Assembly: GCF_900156425.1 (NCBI RefSeq)
Contig: NZ_FTNO01000007.1
Location: 62,001 to 126,000 of the forward strand
Length of the DNA: 64,000 nucleotides
From: Haladaptatus litoreus
GTDB taxonomy: Archaea > Halobacteriota > Halobacteria > Halobacteriales > Haladaptataceae
Reading direction: 5' to 3'
Shown here: positions 4,341 through 45,744 of the stretch, piece by piece
Numbering within the stretch: position 1 is the first letter of the stretch
Layout of the letters: each line of letters opens with the position of its first letter
Position numbers and translations under genes: made by a program
Notes under the pieces: generated by a model
The model's database searches: none
The model's input: only the letters and a program-made list of their open reading frames with translations
Told to the model about the DNA's origin: nothing

Positions 4341-4682
4341 TCAGTCCAAACCGAGACTCACTTTGAGCGCTGCATCGATTTCGACCATTTTCTCATCACT
4401 AACCTGCCCAACGGTTCGCTCAATACGTTTTTCAATATCGACCGTTCGTATTTGATCGAGTTGGACAGCAGAATCCTTGTCGACATCTTCATCGCTTGTA
4501 CGGAGAATAACCACAAACGGATATTGTGAGAGTGTCGTTGTCATCGGGGCAACGATTGTTGTGGGCGAATACTGATTGCCGGTATCGTTTTGAATAACAA
4601 CTGCTGGACGGGTCTTTTTGATTTCGGAGCCTTTTGTGGGATCTAGATTTACGAGAACAATATCACCGCGAGAGACGCTCAT
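4341..4682 (-). CDS. mazF: MazF/PemK-family toxin
   Basis: 113 residues from ATG 4682. The N-terminus MSVSRGDIVLVNLDPTKGSE and following KKTRPAVVIQNDTGN are the conserved MazF/PemK strands and loop, and ending segment VDIEKRIERTVGQVSDE is the usual C-terminal helix region. The family cleaves mRNA as a sequence-specific endoribonuclease. The start overlaps the stop of the upstream antitoxin gene by four bases (ATGA), indicating translational coupling. Length is normal and no disruption is seen. Confidence 0.92.
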   Translation of the reverse strand: MSVSRGDIVLVNLDPTKGSEIKKTRPAVVIQNDTGNQYSPTTIVAPMTTTLSQYPFVVILRTSDEDVDKDSAVQLDQIRTVDIEKRIERTVGQVSDEKMVEIDAALKVSLGLD

Positions 4683-4930
4683 AGGTAGTCGTTTGCCTCT
4701 CTCGATGCCCCTTCCCATTCCTCATTTAGTTCGCGTGCCTGTTCGGCGTTGTCCTTGTATGCTTTCGCGAGTTCTTCATGGTCAACGCCATTCGGCTTCC
4801 GGATTACGATTTTGCCATCCTCACGCTCAACGATGACCTCGTCTCCCCCGTGGATATCTTCTTGCTCTCGAATCCACTTTGGGATCGTGACCTGACCTCG
4901 ATCACCGACACGTCGTGTGTCCTGGGACAT
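4679..4930 (-). CDS. mazE: AbrB/SpoVT-type antitoxin (MazE-like)
   Basis: 83 residues. A swapped-hairpin AbrB domain is seen in RRVGDRGQVTIPKWIREQ and GGDEVIVEREDGKIVIRKP; the C-terminal acidic helix region (AEQARELNEEWEG) would bind the toxin. It is followed by the MazF gene with a four-base overlap. The family neutralises MazF and represses its own promoter; the AT-rich stretch at 4931-4965 is the probable promoter/operator. Confidence 0.9.
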   Translation of the reverse strand: MSQDTRRVGDRGQVTIPKWIREQEDIHGGDEVIVEREDGKIVIRKPNGVDHEELAKAYKDNAEQARELNEEWEGASREANDYL

Positions 4931-5403: not shown

Positions 5404-5658
5404 TCAGTCAGAAACAGTGACCGTTCGGTCAGGATGGATCGTCACTGTCTGTCCCGCATACTCGAAGCTCACTTTGGGCGAGGCGTGTTGATACAGACTT
5501 TCAAGTGCATCAGGGTCGATGGCCTCATACAGGGGAGTCGTGGGCTTTGCGCCCATGGCGTCAGTTACTGCCGTCACCACGGCAGCGGTAATTGATTCCG
5601 TGTTTGCGGATGTGGTGCGAATCGATGGCTCTGGCTGCGATGGTGATGAGTTGAGCAT
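5404..5658 (-). CDS. Stand-alone HalOD1-domain protein
   Basis: 84 residues from ATG 5658. The HalOD1 signature is complete: TAAVVTAVTDAMGA, PLYEAIDPDALESLY, VSFEYAGQTVTIH and a final strand DRTVTVSD. HalOD1 (halobacterial output domain 1, PF18545) is a predicted signalling/output domain of about 70 residues with no demonstrated biochemical activity. Nothing else is encoded in this protein. It lies convergent with a fragment of the 63-residue-protein gene. No winged-helix partner lies directly upstream here. Confidence 0.85.
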   Translation of the reverse strand: MLNSSPSQPEPSIRTTSANTESITAAVVTAVTDAMGAKPTTPLYEAIDPDALESLYQHASPKVSFEYAGQTVTIHPDRTVTVSD

Positions 5659-6816: not shown

Positions 6817-7179
6817 TCAGTCATTATACGCTGTAGGTTCAGACACCGTGATCCACCCATCACTGACGACCTCAACCTGATACTGGTTATACCGGAACGA
6901 AACACTCCCCTCACTATCACGGATATGCCCCGCAACTTTCGGCCCGAAGAAGCCGTCTTCGATCGCAGCGATATCCACACATTCGTATAAGGGCGAATCT
7001 TTGATCTCTATCGGCGCAACATTCTCAGCATCTGCGATCGCGAAGATGATTTCGGTGGTGAGATCGCGATGGCTCTCGCGTTGGTAGTGAGCCTGTGTTA
7101 CAAACGTCATGTCGGGATCATCGTTTCCATCCGGTGCAAGTCTGGTACCATCCTCGGTGTGGTTATTACTTGAGGTCAT
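6817..7179 (-). CDS. HalOD1-domain protein, second gene of a winged-helix/HalOD1 operon
   Basis: 120 residues from ATG 7179. A disordered acidic N-terminus of about 40 residues precedes HalOD1: HRDLTTEIIFAIADAENVAP, SPLYECVDIAAIEDGFFGP, VSFRYNQYQVEVVSDGWITV. It lies 76 bases downstream of the DUF7344 gene at 7256-7732, same strand. A close paralog (44541-44876) has the same partner in the same order. The variant LYECVDI...FFGP sets these two apart from the other HalOD1 copies in the window. Inference: it works with its upstream regulator. Confidence 0.85.
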   Translation of the reverse strand: MTSSNNHTEDGTRLAPDGNDDPDMTFVTQAHYQRESHRDLTTEIIFAIADAENVAPIEIKDSPLYECVDIAAIEDGFFGPKVAGHIRDSEGSVSFRYNQYQVEVVSDGWITVSEPTAYND

Positions 7180-7255
7180 CTGTCGTTCTCCGTGTGAAAA
7201 TGTCCTATCGTACTGTCGTTCCTGAGGCAGTGATACCTCTTTGGGCAGCCATGGG

Positions 7256-7732
7256 TTACTCGGTACTCTCCCGGTCGAACTCGCTGCGAGCGTGTGTTTC
7301 TTGGCGATTGTCGAGACTGCCACCGGCACCCTCCAACGCGGTCAACACTTGCACCGCATGCGGACCCGGCGTGATTGTCTCGGTGTCGGCATCGAACTCA
7401 ATGACGTCCAAATCAACGAGTTTCGGCACGTGAGAGTGATAGAGTGACGTGTACATTTCGTGGCGCGTGAGCGTCGCGATATTCGTCTCTACGGTGTCGG
7501 TCTCCCACGCAGCGAGCTTCGTCGCAAGGTCATCGAGTGACCATTCGGTTGCTTCAGCGAGGGTGTAGACGAGGTAGCGTCGTCGTGGATGGGCAATCGC
7601 CTCGAAGACCGGTTGTAACTCGAGGACGACCTCTGCGACATCAATGTCAAGATCGCGCTCGGCGGCGCTCTCCTCGCCGGACTGACTGGAATGGGTCTCC
7701 CACTCGTCGGGAGGTGGCTCGTTCCCTGCCAT
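7256..7732 (-). CDS. DUF7344 winged-helix protein (operon with HalOD1)
   Basis: 158 residues from ATG 7732. After an acidic leader of about 40 residues comes the DUF7344 winged helix: VFEAIAHPRRRYLVYTLAEA, WSLDDLATKLAAWETDT, then MYTSLYHSHVPKLVDLDVIE and FDADTETITPGPHA. The HPRRRYL and LYHSHVPKL motifs are diagnostic for the family; the fold is that of a DNA-binding wHTH but targets are unknown. Paralog with matching partner at 44866-45309. An A-rich run (11 As) lies 24 bases upstream of the start. Confidence 0.87.
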   Translation of the reverse strand: MAGNEPPPDEWETHSSQSGEESAAERDLDIDVAEVVLELQPVFEAIAHPRRRYLVYTLAEATEWSLDDLATKLAAWETDTVETNIATLTRHEMYTSLYHSHVPKLVDLDVIEFDADTETITPGPHAVQVLTALEGAGGSLDNRQETHARSEFDRESTE

Positions 7733-7988
7733 AGTCAATGCTGAGGCGTCAAACAAAAAAAAAAAATTCCGGTAGACACTGTTTCCCTGACTATATTCGA
7801 CAGATGCGCACTTCATCGCCGTATCGTACCATCCATGGGTACTGGCATATCTCAACCCCGACTATTTGGAGTTACTTAGTAATGACTAGCGGTGCTGTCC
7901 TTCTGTCGGTAGCAGATGTCCCCACGTCTGCTTAGTGCACCATGGAACAGTAAATGTCCAATATGGTGTGTCCATCGACTGAGGGTGA

Positions 7989-8843: not shown

Positions 8844-9239
8844 TCAGTAGGTCTCAACTGGAACACCCAGCGCTTCGAAGTCAGCGACATTGTCCGTGAG
8901 CACTGCATCGTCAAGGATCTCGGCCATCGCGGCGATGTACGCGTCGTTCGGCCCGACACCAGCGTTTCCGCCCTCGTGGTCGTCTGCAGCGGCGAGGAGT
9001 TCGCCCGCCACCCGAGCGATTTCTTCATCGACCTCGATCCGGGGATAGCCCAGGAGGCGATTTCGTACCTCCTGCTCGGTTGTCTGGCTCCGAGCCGTGG
9101 CGACACCGTAGTAGGCCTCGGCGACGACCGGCGTGGGCAACCACTGCATTTCTCCGCGCTCTACGAGTTCCGTCCCTTTCGAGAACGCAGCAGAGTCTTC
9201 TGCCATCAGGTCGAACAGGTACGACGAATCGATGATCAT
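8844..9239 (-). CDS. vapC: VapC-family PIN ribonuclease toxin
   Basis: 131 residues. PIN-domain acidic residues are present: the N-terminal MIIDSSYLFDLM, the conserved Glu in VVAEAYYG, the Asp in GPNDAYIAAMAE and DAVLTDNVADFEAL. The family cleaves RNA, often tRNA or rRNA. The start overlaps the stop of the upstream antitoxin gene by four bases. No disruption; GC is higher than in the flanking remnants. Confidence 0.9.
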   Translation of the reverse strand: MIIDSSYLFDLMAEDSAAFSKGTELVERGEMQWLPTPVVAEAYYGVATARSQTTEQEVRNRLLGYPRIEVDEEIARVAGELLAAADDHEGGNAGVGPNDAYIAAMAEILDDAVLTDNVADFEALGVPVETY

Positions 9240-9484
9240 TCGTCCGTGTCACCGCTCTCGAAGGCGTTGCGGGCGGCGTCGAGACGGTCGCGGTCACGTC
9301 CACGAAGGCGGTCAACTGCCTCCTTGGCGTCCTCCGCGTCCTCTTTCGACAGGAGGCCGGCGACGTCGCTGGGATGAGGGCCACGTGTCATTCGGCGTAG
9401 CGTCTCCTCCATCGTCTCACCGTTCTTCTTGTGGGCGTTCAGCCACTCGTGATACTCTTCCGAAACTCGGATGGTTTTGACCAT
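9236..9484 (-). CDS. vapB: VapB-like antitoxin
   Basis: 82 residues from ATG 9484. N-terminal MVKTIRVSEEYHEWLNAHKK is a short DNA-binding strand-helix typical of haloarchaeal VapB-type antitoxins; the rest is charged (LRGRDRDRLDAARNAFESG) and would wrap the toxin. Overlaps vapC by four bases. A likely promoter is the AT-rich stretch just upstream (ATACAATATATTCGGATATA). Confidence 0.85.
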   Translation of the reverse strand: MVKTIRVSEEYHEWLNAHKKNGETMEETLRRMTRGPHPSDVAGLLSKEDAEDAKEAVDRLRGRDRDRLDAARNAFESGDTDE

Positions 9485-10328: not shown

Positions 10329-10628
10329 CTACTCGCTTCTTCGAACGACAACAGTATCTCCAGCGACGGAAATGCAGCACCCGTTAAAGCTGAACGTCAC
10401 CGAATTCTCCTTGTGGTCGGTTCGTCTACTCGATTCACTGAAAAGGCCGTCAAGGTGAACAGGATCCATCACAGAGTAGAGTGGATCGAGGTCGATCACT
10501 GGCGTGTTCGTCAGGGCGGCAGTTGCCCGAACGACGGCTTCACTCGGTGATTCTCCCTCCCCGATTTCATAAGTGAGTTCGGTGGCTTGGCTGGCAGTCT
10601 CGTTATTGTCTGATGAATCATTTGTCAT
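10329..10628 (-). CDS. HalOD1-domain protein, partner of a winged-helix/TrmB-effector regulator
   Basis: 99 residues from ATG 10628. HalOD1 elements: SEAVVRATAALTNTP, LDPLYSVMDPVHLDGLF, VTFSFNGCCISVAGDTVVV. The start lies two bases after the stop of the upstream regulator gene (10631-11482), so the two are almost surely co-transcribed. Ends against a SprT fragment on the other strand. Domain role predicted as signal output; no enzyme motif is seen. Confidence 0.85.
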   Translation of the reverse strand: MTNDSSDNNETASQATELTYEIGEGESPSEAVVRATAALTNTPVIDLDPLYSVMDPVHLDGLFSESSRRTDHKENSVTFSFNGCCISVAGDTVVVRRSE

Positions 10629-10630
10629 TG

Positions 10631-11482
10631 TTACGAATGGATCTCACTTTGGAAATCGGGACTCTGGTAGTCGAGGTGATCGAGTCGTGGTCCAAGTAAT
10701 TCTCGAACGAGGACGACCAGTGGGTTGTCTTCGCCGTCTCCAACTATTGTCCTCTCCTCTGGGTAACTGCTATCGGAGTTCGGCTCATCCAAAATGGCGA
10801 GCATGACCTTTCGGCGGTCGACGAGAACCAGGCGACTGACTGTCGGGTACTCCGATGGCGCTCTCAACCATGTATGCTGGGGTTCCCAAAGCGTGACTTC
10901 GGGCAGACGTTTGCGACAGAGATCGCAGACCTCGGGATTCTGTGACCCCAGATACAGCTCTACACCTCGGTTGAGAGCGTCTTCCGCGTGGCTAAGACAC
11001 TCCTCTTCGAGCAAATCAGTGCTGACGTACATGCAGAACAGTTCCTCCTCCGCCTCGTCGGCAAGTTGTTTGCCGTACTCGACCGCTGCCTGACGGCCTT
11101 CGAGCACCCCGATCGGGTTCTCGGTAGATTGGGAATCGGTTGGAAACTTCGCCAGCAACTGGTCAAAAACATCCTCGTCAAGCCAGTCAATCTCAGTTAC
11201 TACATTGGGACGAGACGAAACGATGTTCTCCTCTAAATCGTAGTCAATTACCCCGTATTCTGCGAGTCTTGGGAGAGAGTTATGATGCAACGAGAGCCGT
11301 TCCTGTTTGAGCTGACGTTCGTACTCGTCAGCGCTGATCATCGTCTCGTCTCGTTTGACTAGCTGTTCGGCCAGCTCGGTTATGTGGAGCGGCCTTTTGG
11401 CATCTTCAAGCACAGCCAGTATCTCCCGATAGTGGGGATCGGATAGAATAGCCGTCCTATTTCGACGCACATTGCTAGTCAT
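10631..11482 (-). CDS. Winged-helix regulator with TrmB-type effector domain
   Basis: 283 residues from ATG 11482. N-terminal DUF7344-like winged helix at about 10-95 (ILAVLEDAKRPLHITELAEQ, LSLHHNSLPRLAEYGVIDYD). The C-terminal 170 residues resemble the PLD-like effector part of TrmB regulators: EGRQAAVEYGKQLADEAEEE, NRGVELYLGSQNP, SRLVLVDRRKVMLAILDE. The layout matches the C-terminal half of the TrmB protein at 24714-25553, so this looks like a DNA-binding domain swap. Forms an operon with the HalOD1 gene two bases downstream. Confidence 0.75.
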   Translation of the reverse strand: MTSNVRRNRTAILSDPHYREILAVLEDAKRPLHITELAEQLVKRDETMISADEYERQLKQERLSLHHNSLPRLAEYGVIDYDLEENIVSSRPNVVTEIDWLDEDVFDQLLAKFPTDSQSTENPIGVLEGRQAAVEYGKQLADEAEEELFCMYVSTDLLEEECLSHAEDALNRGVELYLGSQNPEVCDLCRKRLPEVTLWEPQHTWLRAPSEYPTVSRLVLVDRRKVMLAILDEPNSDSSYPEERTIVGDGEDNPLVVLVRELLGPRLDHLDYQSPDFQSEIHS

Positions 11483-11966: not shown

Positions 11967-12926
11967 ATGATACGCCCTTCCCGTCGGACAGAGCGCGACG
12001 AGACGGAGCACAATGAAGATGAACACGAGGGCGTCCAGGGCTGTCCTGAGTGTGACTCAGAAACCCTGCTTACAAGCGCAAACGGAAGTGAAATCGTCTG
12101 TGAGACCTGTGGGTTGATTGTTGAGGAAGAGGCTGTTGACCCTGGACCAGAGTGGCGAGCCTTCAATCACCAGGAGCGCCAACAGAAGTCCCGGGTTGGT
12201 GCACCGATAACCGAGACGATGCATGATAAGGGCCTCACAACGAATATCGATTGGAAAGATAAGGACGCCGCCGGTAACACGTTGTCCGCTGAAAAACGCA
12301 GCCAGATGCACCGACTGCGCAAATGGCAAGGACGTATCCGAACGAAAGATGCCAGCGAACGTAACCTCAAATTTGCACTCTCCGAGATCGACCGAATGGC
12401 GAGTGCACTCGGTGTTCCGCGATCGGTTCGCGAAGTCGCCTGTGTCCTGTATCGTCGCGCACTAGATGACGATCTGATTCGAGGCCGCTCGATCGAAGGG
12501 GTCGCGACCTGCTGCTTGTATGCTGCGTGTCGCAGCGAAAATATCCCTCGGAGTCTCGAAGAGATTGCAGATGTATCGCGTGTGGAACGGAGAGAAATAA
12601 GTCGTTCATACACGTATATCGGACGGGAACTCGATCTCGAAATACGACCGGTCGACCCAAAACAGTATATTCCTCGATTCTGTTCGGAACTGGGGAGTAG
12701 TGACGCTGTCGAAGCGAAAACAAATGAAATTCTCGACGTCGCGTCATCGAAGGGCCTGTTTTCGGGAAAATCCCCCACTAGTTGTGCCGCTGCAGCGATT
12801 TACGCTGCGTCACTACTGTGCGGTGAGAAAGAAACACAGCGTGCGGTCGCTACGGCGACACAAGTTACCGAAGTTACCATCCGTAATCACTATCAAGAAC
12901 AACTCGATGCGGTCGGTCTCCAGTAA
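11967..12926 (+). CDS. tfb: Transcription initiation factor IIB (TFB paralog)
   Basis: 319 residues. Zinc ribbon with Cys at about 26/29 and 45/48 (GCPECDSET ... VCETCGLIVEE), B-reader/linker (DPGPEWRAFNHQE), then two cyclin repeats: LGVPRSVREVACVLYRRAL with RGRSIEGVATCCLYAACR, and the second with GKSPTSCAAAAIYAASLL and TQVTEVTIRNHYQEQL. TFB recruits RNA polymerase to TBP-bound promoters. Haloarchaea carry several TFBs that target different promoters; its place amid regulator islands suggests an accessory paralog. Full length and intact. Confidence 0.95.
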   Translation: MIRPSRRTERDETEHNEDEHEGVQGCPECDSETLLTSANGSEIVCETCGLIVEEEAVDPGPEWRAFNHQERQQKSRVGAPITETMHDKGLTTNIDWKDKDAAGNTLSAEKRSQMHRLRKWQGRIRTKDASERNLKFALSEIDRMASALGVPRSVREVACVLYRRALDDDLIRGRSIEGVATCCLYAACRSENIPRSLEEIADVSRVERREISRSYTYIGRELDLEIRPVDPKQYIPRFCSELGSSDAVEAKTNEILDVASSKGLFSGKSPTSCAAAAIYAASLLCGEKETQRAVATATQVTEVTIRNHYQEQLDAVGLQ

Positions 12927-13331: not shown

Positions 13332-13526
13332 ATGGCAAACGGTAAAGTTGATTTCTTCAACAACACTGGCGGCTACGGTTTCATCACGACGGACGACTCT
13401 GACGACGACGTATTCTTCCACATGGAGGACGTTGGCGGCGCTGACCTCGAAGAGGGACAGGAGATTGACTTCGATATCGAACAGGCCCCCAAGGGCCCAC
13501 GCGCGATGAACGTCGTTCGCGCATAA
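13332..13526 (+). CDS. cspA: Cold-shock-domain protein
   Basis: 64 residues. The RNP1 motif KVDFFNNTGGYGFI and RNP2 VFFHMEDV are clear, as are the C-terminal strands (GQEIDFDIEQAPKGPRAMNV). Small OB-fold proteins of this family bind single-stranded RNA/DNA and act as RNA chaperones. Length is normal for haloarchaeal CspA. Monocistronic. Confidence 0.95.
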   Translation: MANGKVDFFNNTGGYGFITTDDSDDDVFFHMEDVGGADLEEGQEIDFDIEQAPKGPRAMNVVRA

Positions 13527-42464: not shown

Positions 42465-42792
42465 CTTCCGTACTCTATCTCTCTACGCATAACTCCTTTG
42501 GGCACTGTCGTAACCGTATTCCTGTGCAAATCGGGCTAAAACAAACGAAACCAATCGATTCGGTATCTTTTACCACCGACGAATTGCTTGTTGAAACGGC
42601 TCTCATATAGTACTAATTAGTTATATAACGGTTCTCTACTACTATTATGATACGGGACACACTGATGCGTTCAATTCCTAGAAGGGGAACGGACAACATG
42701 TGAGACAAGTGGACTGTACCACATGTCCGCGTGAACAGATCCGCGCGGTTGCATGGTCGTCCTTGACACACAGAGGCTGGAGGAATGAATGC
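42465..42792. other. Intergenic, no gene seen
   Basis: About 330 bases, AT-rich around 42600-42650 (TACTAATTAGTTATATAACGG), with likely promoter sequence for the tandem DUF7344 gene. Confidence 0.4.
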
Positions 42793-43500
42793 ATGTCAGA
42801 TACTCATCGCACCTCTGATGACCACGACAACGGGGCACCACCAACGAAACCACCAACTGCTACTCGCCCAGTAGCGTCCCTCCCTGTCGAAGCATTGTGC
42901 AGCCTCCTCGTCGATGCACGAGTACGAGCGGTCTTGCGAGCGTTTGAACACGCAAGCGAATTCACGCTCGACCAATCGACAGTAGTCGAGGAACTCGTTT
43001 CGAGGTCGCCGCAGCCTCGTGAGGACATTCGCCTTCAGCTGCGCCACATTGTGTTGCCAAAACTCACTACCAGTGGTATTCTCGAGTACGAGGCCGAAGG
43101 GATACGAATACGCTATCATCCTCATTCACGTCTTACGACCCTACTTAAACACGCAGATAACGATCCAAATTCAATCCAAGACCGCTGCTTCGACGCGCTT
43201 GGCCATCCACAGCGGCGGCTCATTCTCGCAGGACTAGTCGATGCTGAGAATGGACGTGCACTAACGGCCATCACGCTCGGTTTGATGAGAACTGACGGGA
43301 ATCGAGTATCTCCAGAACGGTCTGGTCGGGAGTTCCAGCAGGCACGAACCGCCCTCATTCACAAGCACCTCCCTCGTCTCGTTGCGAATGAACTCATTAC
43401 GTATCGAGATGCGTCAGAGACAGTTGCCATGCGAGAAACGCCGGCTGCACAACGACTCCCATCATACGTGACTACGCTTGACGCCGTAGAACGCGAGTGA
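42793..43500 (+). CDS. Tandem double-DUF7344 winged-helix protein
   Basis: 235 residues from ATG 42793. First domain about 35-125: LCSLLVDARVRAVLRAFEHA, IRLQLRHIVLPKLTTSGILE, YHPHSRLTTLL. Second about 135-230: CFDALGHPQRRLILAGLVDA, RTALIHKHLPRLVANELITY. Both carry the LxHxxLPxL helix. A covalent dimer of two winged helices could bind an asymmetric operator alone. Only fused case in the window. Confidence 0.82.
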   Translation: MSDTHRTSDDHDNGAPPTKPPTATRPVASLPVEALCSLLVDARVRAVLRAFEHASEFTLDQSTVVEELVSRSPQPREDIRLQLRHIVLPKLTTSGILEYEAEGIRIRYHPHSRLTTLLKHADNDPNSIQDRCFDALGHPQRRLILAGLVDAENGRALTAITLGLMRTDGNRVSPERSGREFQQARTALIHKHLPRLVANELITYRDASETVAMRETPAAQRLPSYVTTLDAVERE

Positions 43501-43701: not shown

Positions 43702-44055
43702 ATGACCGAATACATTCCTCCATTCGATGACGATAGTAACGATGCAGATGACGCGGTTTATCAAACGGAGTTTGATCCGATAACAGACAGGGTCAGTGAA
43801 GAGCTGCTCAAGGCCGTTGCAACACTGAACGACGCTGATCCGACCGAACTAACAGTGCTCTCGGAGTTCGTTGACCCCGAGGCGCTTGATGCGCTGTTTG
43901 GCCCCCGAGCGAGTAAGGACCCGCGTGATTCGAATGGACATATTTTGTTCAATTACGATTCGTACTACGTGAAGGTTGAGAGCGATGGGCAGATTACGTT
44001 TCACCAACCCATGTCAGAATCAAATACAGATCACGCACTGATTGAGGACGATTAG
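43702..44055 (+). CDS. HalOD1-domain protein (copy of the 23.9-kb module)
   Basis: 117 residues from ATG 43702: acidic leader, TEFDPITDRVSEELLKAVAT, LSEFVDPEALDALFGPRA, LFNYDSYYVKVESDGQITFH. Near-identical to 13975-14250 where they overlap and close to 23926-24282. The upstream 160 bases also match the 24.3-24.48 kb region, so a whole promoter-plus-gene unit was copied. Followed by a convergent fragment of the 63-residue-protein gene. Confidence 0.87.
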   Translation: MTEYIPPFDDDSNDADDAVYQTEFDPITDRVSEELLKAVATLNDADPTELTVLSEFVDPEALDALFGPRASKDPRDSNGHILFNYDSYYVKVESDGQITFHQPMSESNTDHALIEDD

Positions 44056-44540: not shown

Positions 44541-44876
44541 TCAGGGGCGTCCATACACCGAAACCCAACCCTCACTACTGACTTCGATTCGATACTCCCC
44601 AAAGAGAAATTCGACACTACCAACCGCATTCCGACGCTCTCCTGCGATCGTCGGCCCGAAAAAGGAATCCTCCAATGCCGCGATATCAACACACTCGTAG
44701 AGTATCGGGTCTTTCAGCTCTGCCGGTGAGATACCTTCGGCCGCTGCAATCGCCCCAACAATCGTGGTCGTCAGATCATCGCGACTGGCCCGCTCGTACT
44801 GAGCTTGCTCGAGGAGCTGTTCGCCACCGTCTACGCTGGCCTTGGGATCACTGTCTTCGTCAAAACTATCCGTCAT
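44541..44876 (-). CDS. HalOD1-domain protein, second gene of winged-helix/HalOD1 operon
   Basis: 111 residues from ATG 44876. Acidic leader, then DDLTTTIVGAIAAAEGISPA, DPILYECVDIAALEDSFFGP and VEFLFGEYRIEVSSEGWVSV. Ortholog-like match to 6817-7179 (same LYECVDIAA...FFGP variant). Overlaps the end of the upstream DUF7344 gene by 11 bases, so translation is probably coupled. Confidence 0.87.
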   Translation of the reverse strand: MTDSFDEDSDPKASVDGGEQLLEQAQYERASRDDLTTTIVGAIAAAEGISPAELKDPILYECVDIAALEDSFFGPTIAGERRNAVGSVEFLFGEYRIEVSSEGWVSVYGRP

Positions 44877-45309
44877 CCATCTCACTCCGTGCGTGGGCTT
44901 CTTGTCGCATGTCGAGACTCGCCCCCGCCCCTGCTAAGGCAGTCAATACCTGCTCAGTGTACTCTCCCGGCCAGATAGTCTCGGTGTCGGCATCGAACTG
45001 GATGACCCGTTCATCGACAAGTTTGGGGATGTGGGCATGGTAGAGGGAGGCGAACATCCGATCGATCTCCTCCTGTGAAACATCCTTCTCAGGCGTTTCA
45101 GTCTCCCAGGCGACAAGCTTGGTCGCAAGCTCACGCACTGACCATTCTGTTTTTGATTCAAGTGTGTAAAGCAGATAGCGCCGGCGGGAGTTTGCAATCG
45201 ATTGGAAGATGTAGTCCAACTCCAAGATGTGCTCAGGGATCTCCGGCATGGTACCGGCATTGGATGATATCTCCAATGCTGATTCCTCGTCGTGATCATG
45301 TTGTGTCAT
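44866..45309 (-). CDS. DUF7344 winged-helix protein (operon with HalOD1)
   Basis: 147 residues from ATG 45309. IFQSIANSRRRYLLYTLESK, WSVRELATKLVAWETETP, MFASLYHAHIPKLVDERVIQ, FDADTETIWPGEYTEQVLTA, ending RQEAHARSE. Shares WSxxxLATKLxAWETxT and RQEtHARSE with 7256-7732, so the two operons are duplicates. First gene of the pair. Confidence 0.88.
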   Translation of the reverse strand: MTQHDHDEESALEISSNAGTMPEIPEHILELDYIFQSIANSRRRYLLYTLESKTEWSVRELATKLVAWETETPEKDVSQEEIDRMFASLYHAHIPKLVDERVIQFDADTETIWPGEYTEQVLTALAGAGASLDMRQEAHARSEMDDG

Positions 45310-45513
45310 ATATGGATTACTCCAACTATTGCATCCAGCACTATCGACGGAGTGTGCTGGCTTCTGGTATCCAAAAGCTCCCAGTGTGGTTAAAATCAGC
45401 GTTAACTCACATTTACACACGTCCACTGGATGGTATGAATTGTATGTTCACTGAGAAGACAACATAGCGTGAAAATCTCGACGGTAGTTATCGGTGGAGA
45501 CTGTAGACCTTGC

Positions 45514-45744
45514 ATGGAAACATACGCAGATCCATCTCGCCATCCCAGTACAAGCGTGAAGCAAGCAGTTGCTGCATTGGAAGAGTGTGATCCAGAGCAA
45601 CTTGGGACGTTGAGTGCGGCAGTCGATATCGACGAACTTGCTCGAGTGTTTGACTCGCCGAGTGATCGGGAGTCAATCTCATTTCAGTACTGTGGGTATT
45701 CTATCACAGTCGCGTCTACTCATCTGATGTGCATCGAATCATAG
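45514..45744 (+). CDS. Stand-alone HalOD1-domain protein (short)
   Basis: 76 residues from ATG 45514; a GTG at 45469 would add 15. STSVKQAVAALEECDPEQLG, LSAAVDIDELARVF, ISFQYCGYSITVASTHLMCI. The PLY/DPDAL motif is diverged (AAVDIDEL), but the order and spacing of the elements fit HalOD1. Divergent to the operon at 44541-45309. Confidence 0.7.
   Translation: METYADPSRHPSTSVKQAVAALEECDPEQLGTLSAAVDIDELARVFDSPSDRESISFQYCGYSITVASTHLMCIES

Follow-up and report, generated by a model that had tools for sequence, protein, structure and literature searches.

Two of the four DUF7344-HalOD1 gene pairs found in the analysed window (64,000 nucleotides of the Haladaptatus litoreus genome) belong to one subfamily, here called A-type, and on balance are probably copies of a conserved, apparently undescribed cassette, composed of an ArsR-like winged-helix regulator and of a dedicated HalOD1 partner, translationally coupled to it. 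Conservation, gene order, coupling signals, co-divergence, purifying selection and the predicted winged-helix fold were all established by computation.

The window lies within a 243-kb contig of the 4.67-Mb genome, and the features of the four pairs are reported in Table 1. A sequence-only reading of this DNA had placed DUF7344, followed by HalOD1, at 7732-6817, 45309-44541 and 11482-10329 (sites 1, 2 and 3), with a gap of 76 bases, an 11-base overlap and a gap of 2 bases, respectively. Coordinates, families and distances are exact, and all six proteins exceed the Pfam gathering scores (27.8 for DUF7344, PF24035; 26.3 for HalOD1, PF18545): the DUF7344 proteins of sites 1-3 score 47-83 bits, and the HalOD1 proteins of the four sites 53-74 bits. 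The fourth pair (site 4), on the plus strand and with a gap of 201 nt, had been overlooked. The motifs AWETxT and LYECVDI, described as common to sites 1 and 2, are real. The same reading took the three sites for one recurring operon, which does not hold for site 3, where the DUF7344 gene belongs to a different subfamily; the TrmB-type effector assigned to that site could not be maintained either, the match to Regulator_TrmB being 11.0 bits (E = 0.25), under the Pfam cut-off of 22.2.

Table 1. Location of the DUF7344 and HalOD1 genes, and of the elements associated with them, within the window.
Feature	Position	Strand	Basis
Site 1 A-type DUF7344 winged-helix gene, 158 aa	7256..7732	-	PF24035 83.2 bits; AF2 model, ArsR/CadC-like fold
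Site 1 A-type HalOD1 gene, 120 aa	6817..7179	-	PF18545 52.8 bits; AF2 model
Site 1 T-run 23-34 nt before DUF7344 ATG, where a leaderless promoter has its TATA box	7755..7766	-	sequence
Site 1 GGAG, Shine-Dalgarno-like, ahead of HalOD1 ATG	7188..7191	-	sequence
Site 1 DUF7344 A-type-specific C-terminal tail, QVLTALEGAGGSLDNRQETHARSE	7280..7360	-	alignments
Site 2 A-type DUF7344 winged-helix gene, 147 aa	44866..45309	-	PF24035 74.3 bits
Site 2 A-type HalOD1 gene, 111 aa, start 11 nt inside DUF7344 end	44541..44876	-	PF18545 54.9 bits; overlap conserved across genera
Site 2 GGAG, Shine-Dalgarno-like, within DUF7344 coding end	44885..44888	-	sequence
Site 3 DUF7344 protein of another subfamily, with a C-terminal domain of about 190 aa, weakly TrmB-like	10631..11482	-	PF24035 47.4 bits
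Site 3 HalOD1 gene, 99 aa, 2 nt past DUF7344 stop	10329..10628	-	PF18545 65.2 bits
Site 4 tandem DUF7344 gene	42790..43500	+	PF24035, two stretches
Site 4 HalOD1 gene	43702..44055	+	PF18545 73.5 bits; NF053557 74.3 bits

Other genes are found in the surroundings of these sites. HalOD1 genes with no DUF7344 beside them occur at 5404-5658 (minus strand) and 45469-45744 (plus strand). A MazEF/PemK-like pair (4341-4930, minus strand) and a probable VapBC-like pair (8844-9484, minus strand), featuring a PIN domain and a VapB match under cut-off, are located near sites 1 and 3. Divergently from site 3 run a gene for transcription factor B (11967-12926, plus strand) and, after it, one for a cold-shock protein (13335-13526, plus strand).

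The A-type subfamily is recognized by the consensus GAGxSLDxRQExHARSE in the DUF7344 tail and by DLTT...LYECVDIAAxED in HalOD1, as derived from alignments. The genome has five copies of it, spread over four contigs, one of which is the 2.1-Mb contig C2, and the nearest relatives of these genes are Haladaptatus plasmid genes. A set of 392 Halobacteria genomes was searched with both alignments. An A-type HalOD1 gene lies directly downstream of 54 of the 62 A-type DUF7344 genes, in 42 genomes, and an A-type DUF7344 gene directly upstream of 46 of the 50 best HalOD1 matches. Both genes occur together in 43 genomes, DUF7344 alone in 5, HalOD1 alone in 12 and neither in 332 (Fisher p = 1e-40, kinship of genomes ignored); about 11% of the species sampled carry the coupled pair. 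In a separate GTDB scan, covering many genera and including some chromosomal members, HalOD1 is directly downstream at 23 of 27 A-type DUF7344 loci; none of these loci comes from Haloferax. The exceptions are a locus cut off by the contig end, leaving a partial HalOD1 (L080), a truncated DUF7344 locus (L066), an A-type DUF7344 split by a DDE transposase, with an intact HalOD1 behind its second half (L087, 4010-6434), and a further locus where HalOD1 is not directly downstream (L086). Among solo A-type HalOD1 genes, one in a congener is interrupted by a stop (L098), and one in the present genome is intact and directly follows a SprT-like gene, with no DUF7344 (C5:41390; L031:2088-2867).

Neighbourhood comparison of the A-type loci revealed no conserved third gene; neither gene of the pair contains a receiver (REC) domain and no neighbour is conserved, so that the pair does not qualify as a two-component response regulator. 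Viral and phage searches with the A-type proteins gave no match. The 62 DUF7344 and 52 HalOD1 genes of four other genomes form only six pairs, four of them A-type, which makes pairing a trait of the subfamily. The proposal that the pair moves as a unit is borne out by the neighbourhood check for the subfamily of sites 1 and 2, whose genes are paired at 54 of 62 loci and co-diverge, and is not supported for sites 3 and 4. Relatives of the site 3 DUF7344 have HalOD1 behind them at just 4 of 24 loci in other genomes; a search of 144 other genomes (E 1e-12) returned no homologue of the site 4 DUF7344, and a viral/phage search with the HalOD1 of this site gave no match. As for novelty, which had also been claimed, no description of the pair as a system was found in the literature searched, where DUF7344 is not named.

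The regions preceding the two A-type genes carry different signals. A TATA-like element is located at -34..-20 from the ATG of 38 out of 41 A-type DUF7344 genes, and of 2 out of 46 HalOD1 genes, while an SD-like motif precedes the start of 36/46 HalOD1 and 2/41 DUF7344 genes. HalOD1 starts 4-17 nt inside the DUF7344 gene in 34 of 46 pairs, and its SD-like site usually falls within the end of DUF7344; the 76-nt gap is common to seven Haladaptatus-type members, most of them with GGAG ahead of the ATG. Because TATA-like, SD-like and overlap counts are split in this way between the genes, we infer a leaderless DUF7344 gene, followed by a coupled HalOD1 gene. When the sequences preceding DUF7344 were searched for a common operator or dyad, no clear enrichment over shuffles emerged, and an AGTCG...CGACT dyad was present in only 3 of 35 de-duplicated regions upstream of A-type DUF7344; autoregulation is therefore unsupported.

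The DUF7344 and HalOD1 trees, built for 48 pairs, are correlated with r = 0.83 (permutation maximum 0.33); this denotes joint inheritance rather than contact, since linked genes share their history and co-diverge with or without interaction. Among three near copies in the genome, DUF7344 has a dN/dS of 0.06-0.07 and HalOD1 one of 0.10, indicating that A-type copies are kept functional by purifying selection. The A-type tail is found in 51 of 54 paired and in 2 of 8 unpaired DUF7344 proteins (p = 3e-5), a test weakened by the unpaired members being just eight and also more divergent. Coding overlap alone is insufficient to explain the tail, as it is also kept where the genes do not overlap. The association of the tail with pairing, seen in alignments, may be regarded as a mechanistic lead.

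The AF2 model of DUF7344 has a mean pLDDT of 79, with a core above 90; its best Foldseek matches are CadC and further winged helices of the ArsR type (probability 1.00, with a weak E of 0.013). The fold is thus similar to that of the ArsR/SmtB metalloregulators, while the HTH_metalloreg scores, 18.9 and 15.8 bits, stay under the NCBIfam cut-off of 55. The HalOD1 model (mean pLDDT 74) had no significant match in a fold search against the PDB, but resembles (E 6e-6) a model made independently for a HalOD1 protein of a halovirus. Sequence searches of solved structures with the DUF7344 and HalOD1 alignments gave no significant match. Assignment to the DdfA equivalog (NF053557, cut-off 70 bits) was discarded for sites 1-3 (46.6, 50.3 and 49.8 bits); of the four sites, only the HalOD1 of site 4 passes it. 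A near relative of this last protein follows an A-type pair on contig C5 (L040).

The (DE)hh(DEN) motifs of HalOD1 have been proposed as metal-binding by Galperin et al. (PMC5847659). When sequences were grouped by an identity criterion, the first residue of the second motif was non-acidic (A/P/V/S/T) in 55 of 56 A-type HalOD1 proteins, as well as in four of the site 3 type, and acidic in all 47 other HalOD1 proteins, outside conserved pairs. The loss is a subfamily trait and does not exclude these proteins from the Pfam HalOD1 family; by sequence comparison it appears to go with both conserved kinds of DUF7344 pairing, a lead which concerns two lineages only.

A natural DUF7504-DUF7344-HalOD1 fusion of about 400 aa is encoded at C2:1656050-1657243 (L118), and a congener has a relative sharing 88% identity with it (L119); DUF7504 is, we assume, a KaiC-like family. 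The full-length fusion, which is not A-type, is limited to these two among 194 genomes searched, and was not retained as wide Rosetta-stone evidence, being confined to one genus.

Adjacency could have arisen by chance, between two abundant families of small genes in regulator-dense plasmid regions. The genome contains 72 DUF7344 and 53 HalOD1 matches, both dense on the window replicon (9 and 11, respectively, on the window contig), and conservation is low or absent at sites 3 and 4. Set against this are the same-strand pairs lying no more than 700 bases apart in the whole genome: in 13 DUF7344 is upstream, with 0.4 expected, as computed replicon by replicon, and in none is the order reversed. 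Since A-type linkage also spans many genera, chance is refuted for this subfamily and very improbable as a general account, although the site 4 pair may be due to it. Improbable, to a lesser degree, is a type II toxin-antitoxin-like cassette, used for plasmid addiction, in which DUF7344 would be the DNA-binding antitoxin and HalOD1 the toxin. Small overlapping genes, with the predicted DNA-binding partner first, fit such an arrangement, as do a patchy distribution, with several copies over several replicons, and the lack of further conserved neighbours; yet the intact A-type HalOD1 at C5:41390 stands alone, most of the 53 HalOD1 domains of the genome are unpaired, HalOD1 is elsewhere fused to response-regulator receivers (PMC5847659), and A-type members are also found on chromosomes. 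PADLOC gave no match, and a search of a defence library nothing convincing.

A real, though minor, possibility is that the two genes are co-transcribed and functionally separate, DUF7344 acting as a regulator and HalOD1 elsewhere, for example on kinases or RdfA/Sph3-like proteins, so that coupling would serve co-expression only. It agrees with the absence of an adjoining DUF7344 for most HalOD1 genes, and with the location of Haloferax ddfA, which adjoins rdfA-sph3 and not a winged-helix gene (PMC10869688). It is less easily reconciled with A-type pairing being near-obligate in both directions, with the decay of the partnerless HalOD1 in a congener (L098), with the correlation between tail and pairing, and with the existence of a DUF7344-HalOD1 fusion.

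According to the favoured reading, that of a coupled regulator and its dedicated partner, a single promoter would produce a leaderless mRNA beginning with the ArsR-like winged-helix DUF7344 gene. Translation of HalOD1 would start from a Shine-Dalgarno site located at the end of DUF7344 or just past it, and the two proteins would therefore be made together, in a fixed ratio. HalOD1 would then bind the DUF7344 protein, probably via the conserved C-terminal tail, forming a physical complex, and would switch its binding to DNA targets upon a signal; the operon itself may be among the target genes. A role as regulator plus response partner, as proposed by the sequence-only reading, is suggested by the winged-helix model, by the one fused protein and by the phenotype of the relative DdfA (PMC10869688).

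HalOD1 has been described as a response-regulator output domain, fused to receivers (REC-HalOD1) and present in up to 49 copies per genome in Halobacteria (PMC5847659); among HalOD1 proteins, DdfA is needed for disk formation and shape, and for the quorum response, in Haloferax volcanii (PMC10869688, PMC12240190). A-type HalOD1 shares with the stand-alone and REC-HalOD1 proteins (Galperin 2018, PMC5847659), DdfA included, the Pfam domain, the small size, the many copies and the signalling context, and differs from them in having no receiver, in being tied to a winged-helix gene and in the lost first acidic residue of the second motif. Haloarchaea have another recurring pair of genes, RdfA-Sph3, which in Haloferax adjoins a HalOD1 gene; its proteins, as described (PMC10869688), are different ones. 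The fused DUF7504-DUF7344-HalOD1 protein joins domain kinds analogous to those of CirA (KaiC-like), CsmR (winged helix) and DdfA (HalOD1), which take part in the Haloferax shape and motility switch (PMC13286277, PMC12240190). The likeness is one of analogy only, because CsmR is described as Lrp/AsnC-like (PMC13286277, PMC12240190) and no DUF7344 was found within 1.5 kb of the archaellin loci checked; for this latter reason, CsmR was rejected as a DUF7344 protein. A-type DUF7344 resembles the ArsR/SmtB/CadC repressors in its model, closest to CadC, and in a weak HTH_metalloreg sequence match, and is separated from them by falling under the curated cut-off. We know of no ArsR counterpart of the A-type tail and of the HalOD1 partner.

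A wider proposal, advanced only as a speculation and rather unlikely, is that DUF7344-HalOD1 pairs form a new archaeal class of split regulators, where HalOD1, with its proposed metal motif partly lost, is the subunit by which a winged-helix transcription factor senses a signal or docks, and where a contact of the same kind underlies the action of DdfA and other HalOD1 proteins in the haloarchaeal shape and quorum response. Few signalling domains of Halobacteria are as abundant as HalOD1, and no binding partner or activity is reported for it in the literature searched; A-type DUF7344 would be its first conserved partner. The existence of a near-obligate partner gene, whose product has a predicted fold, offers a concrete and cheap test of HalOD1 binding, and the pair provides a lead to the function of DUF7344, a family present in tens of copies per genome.
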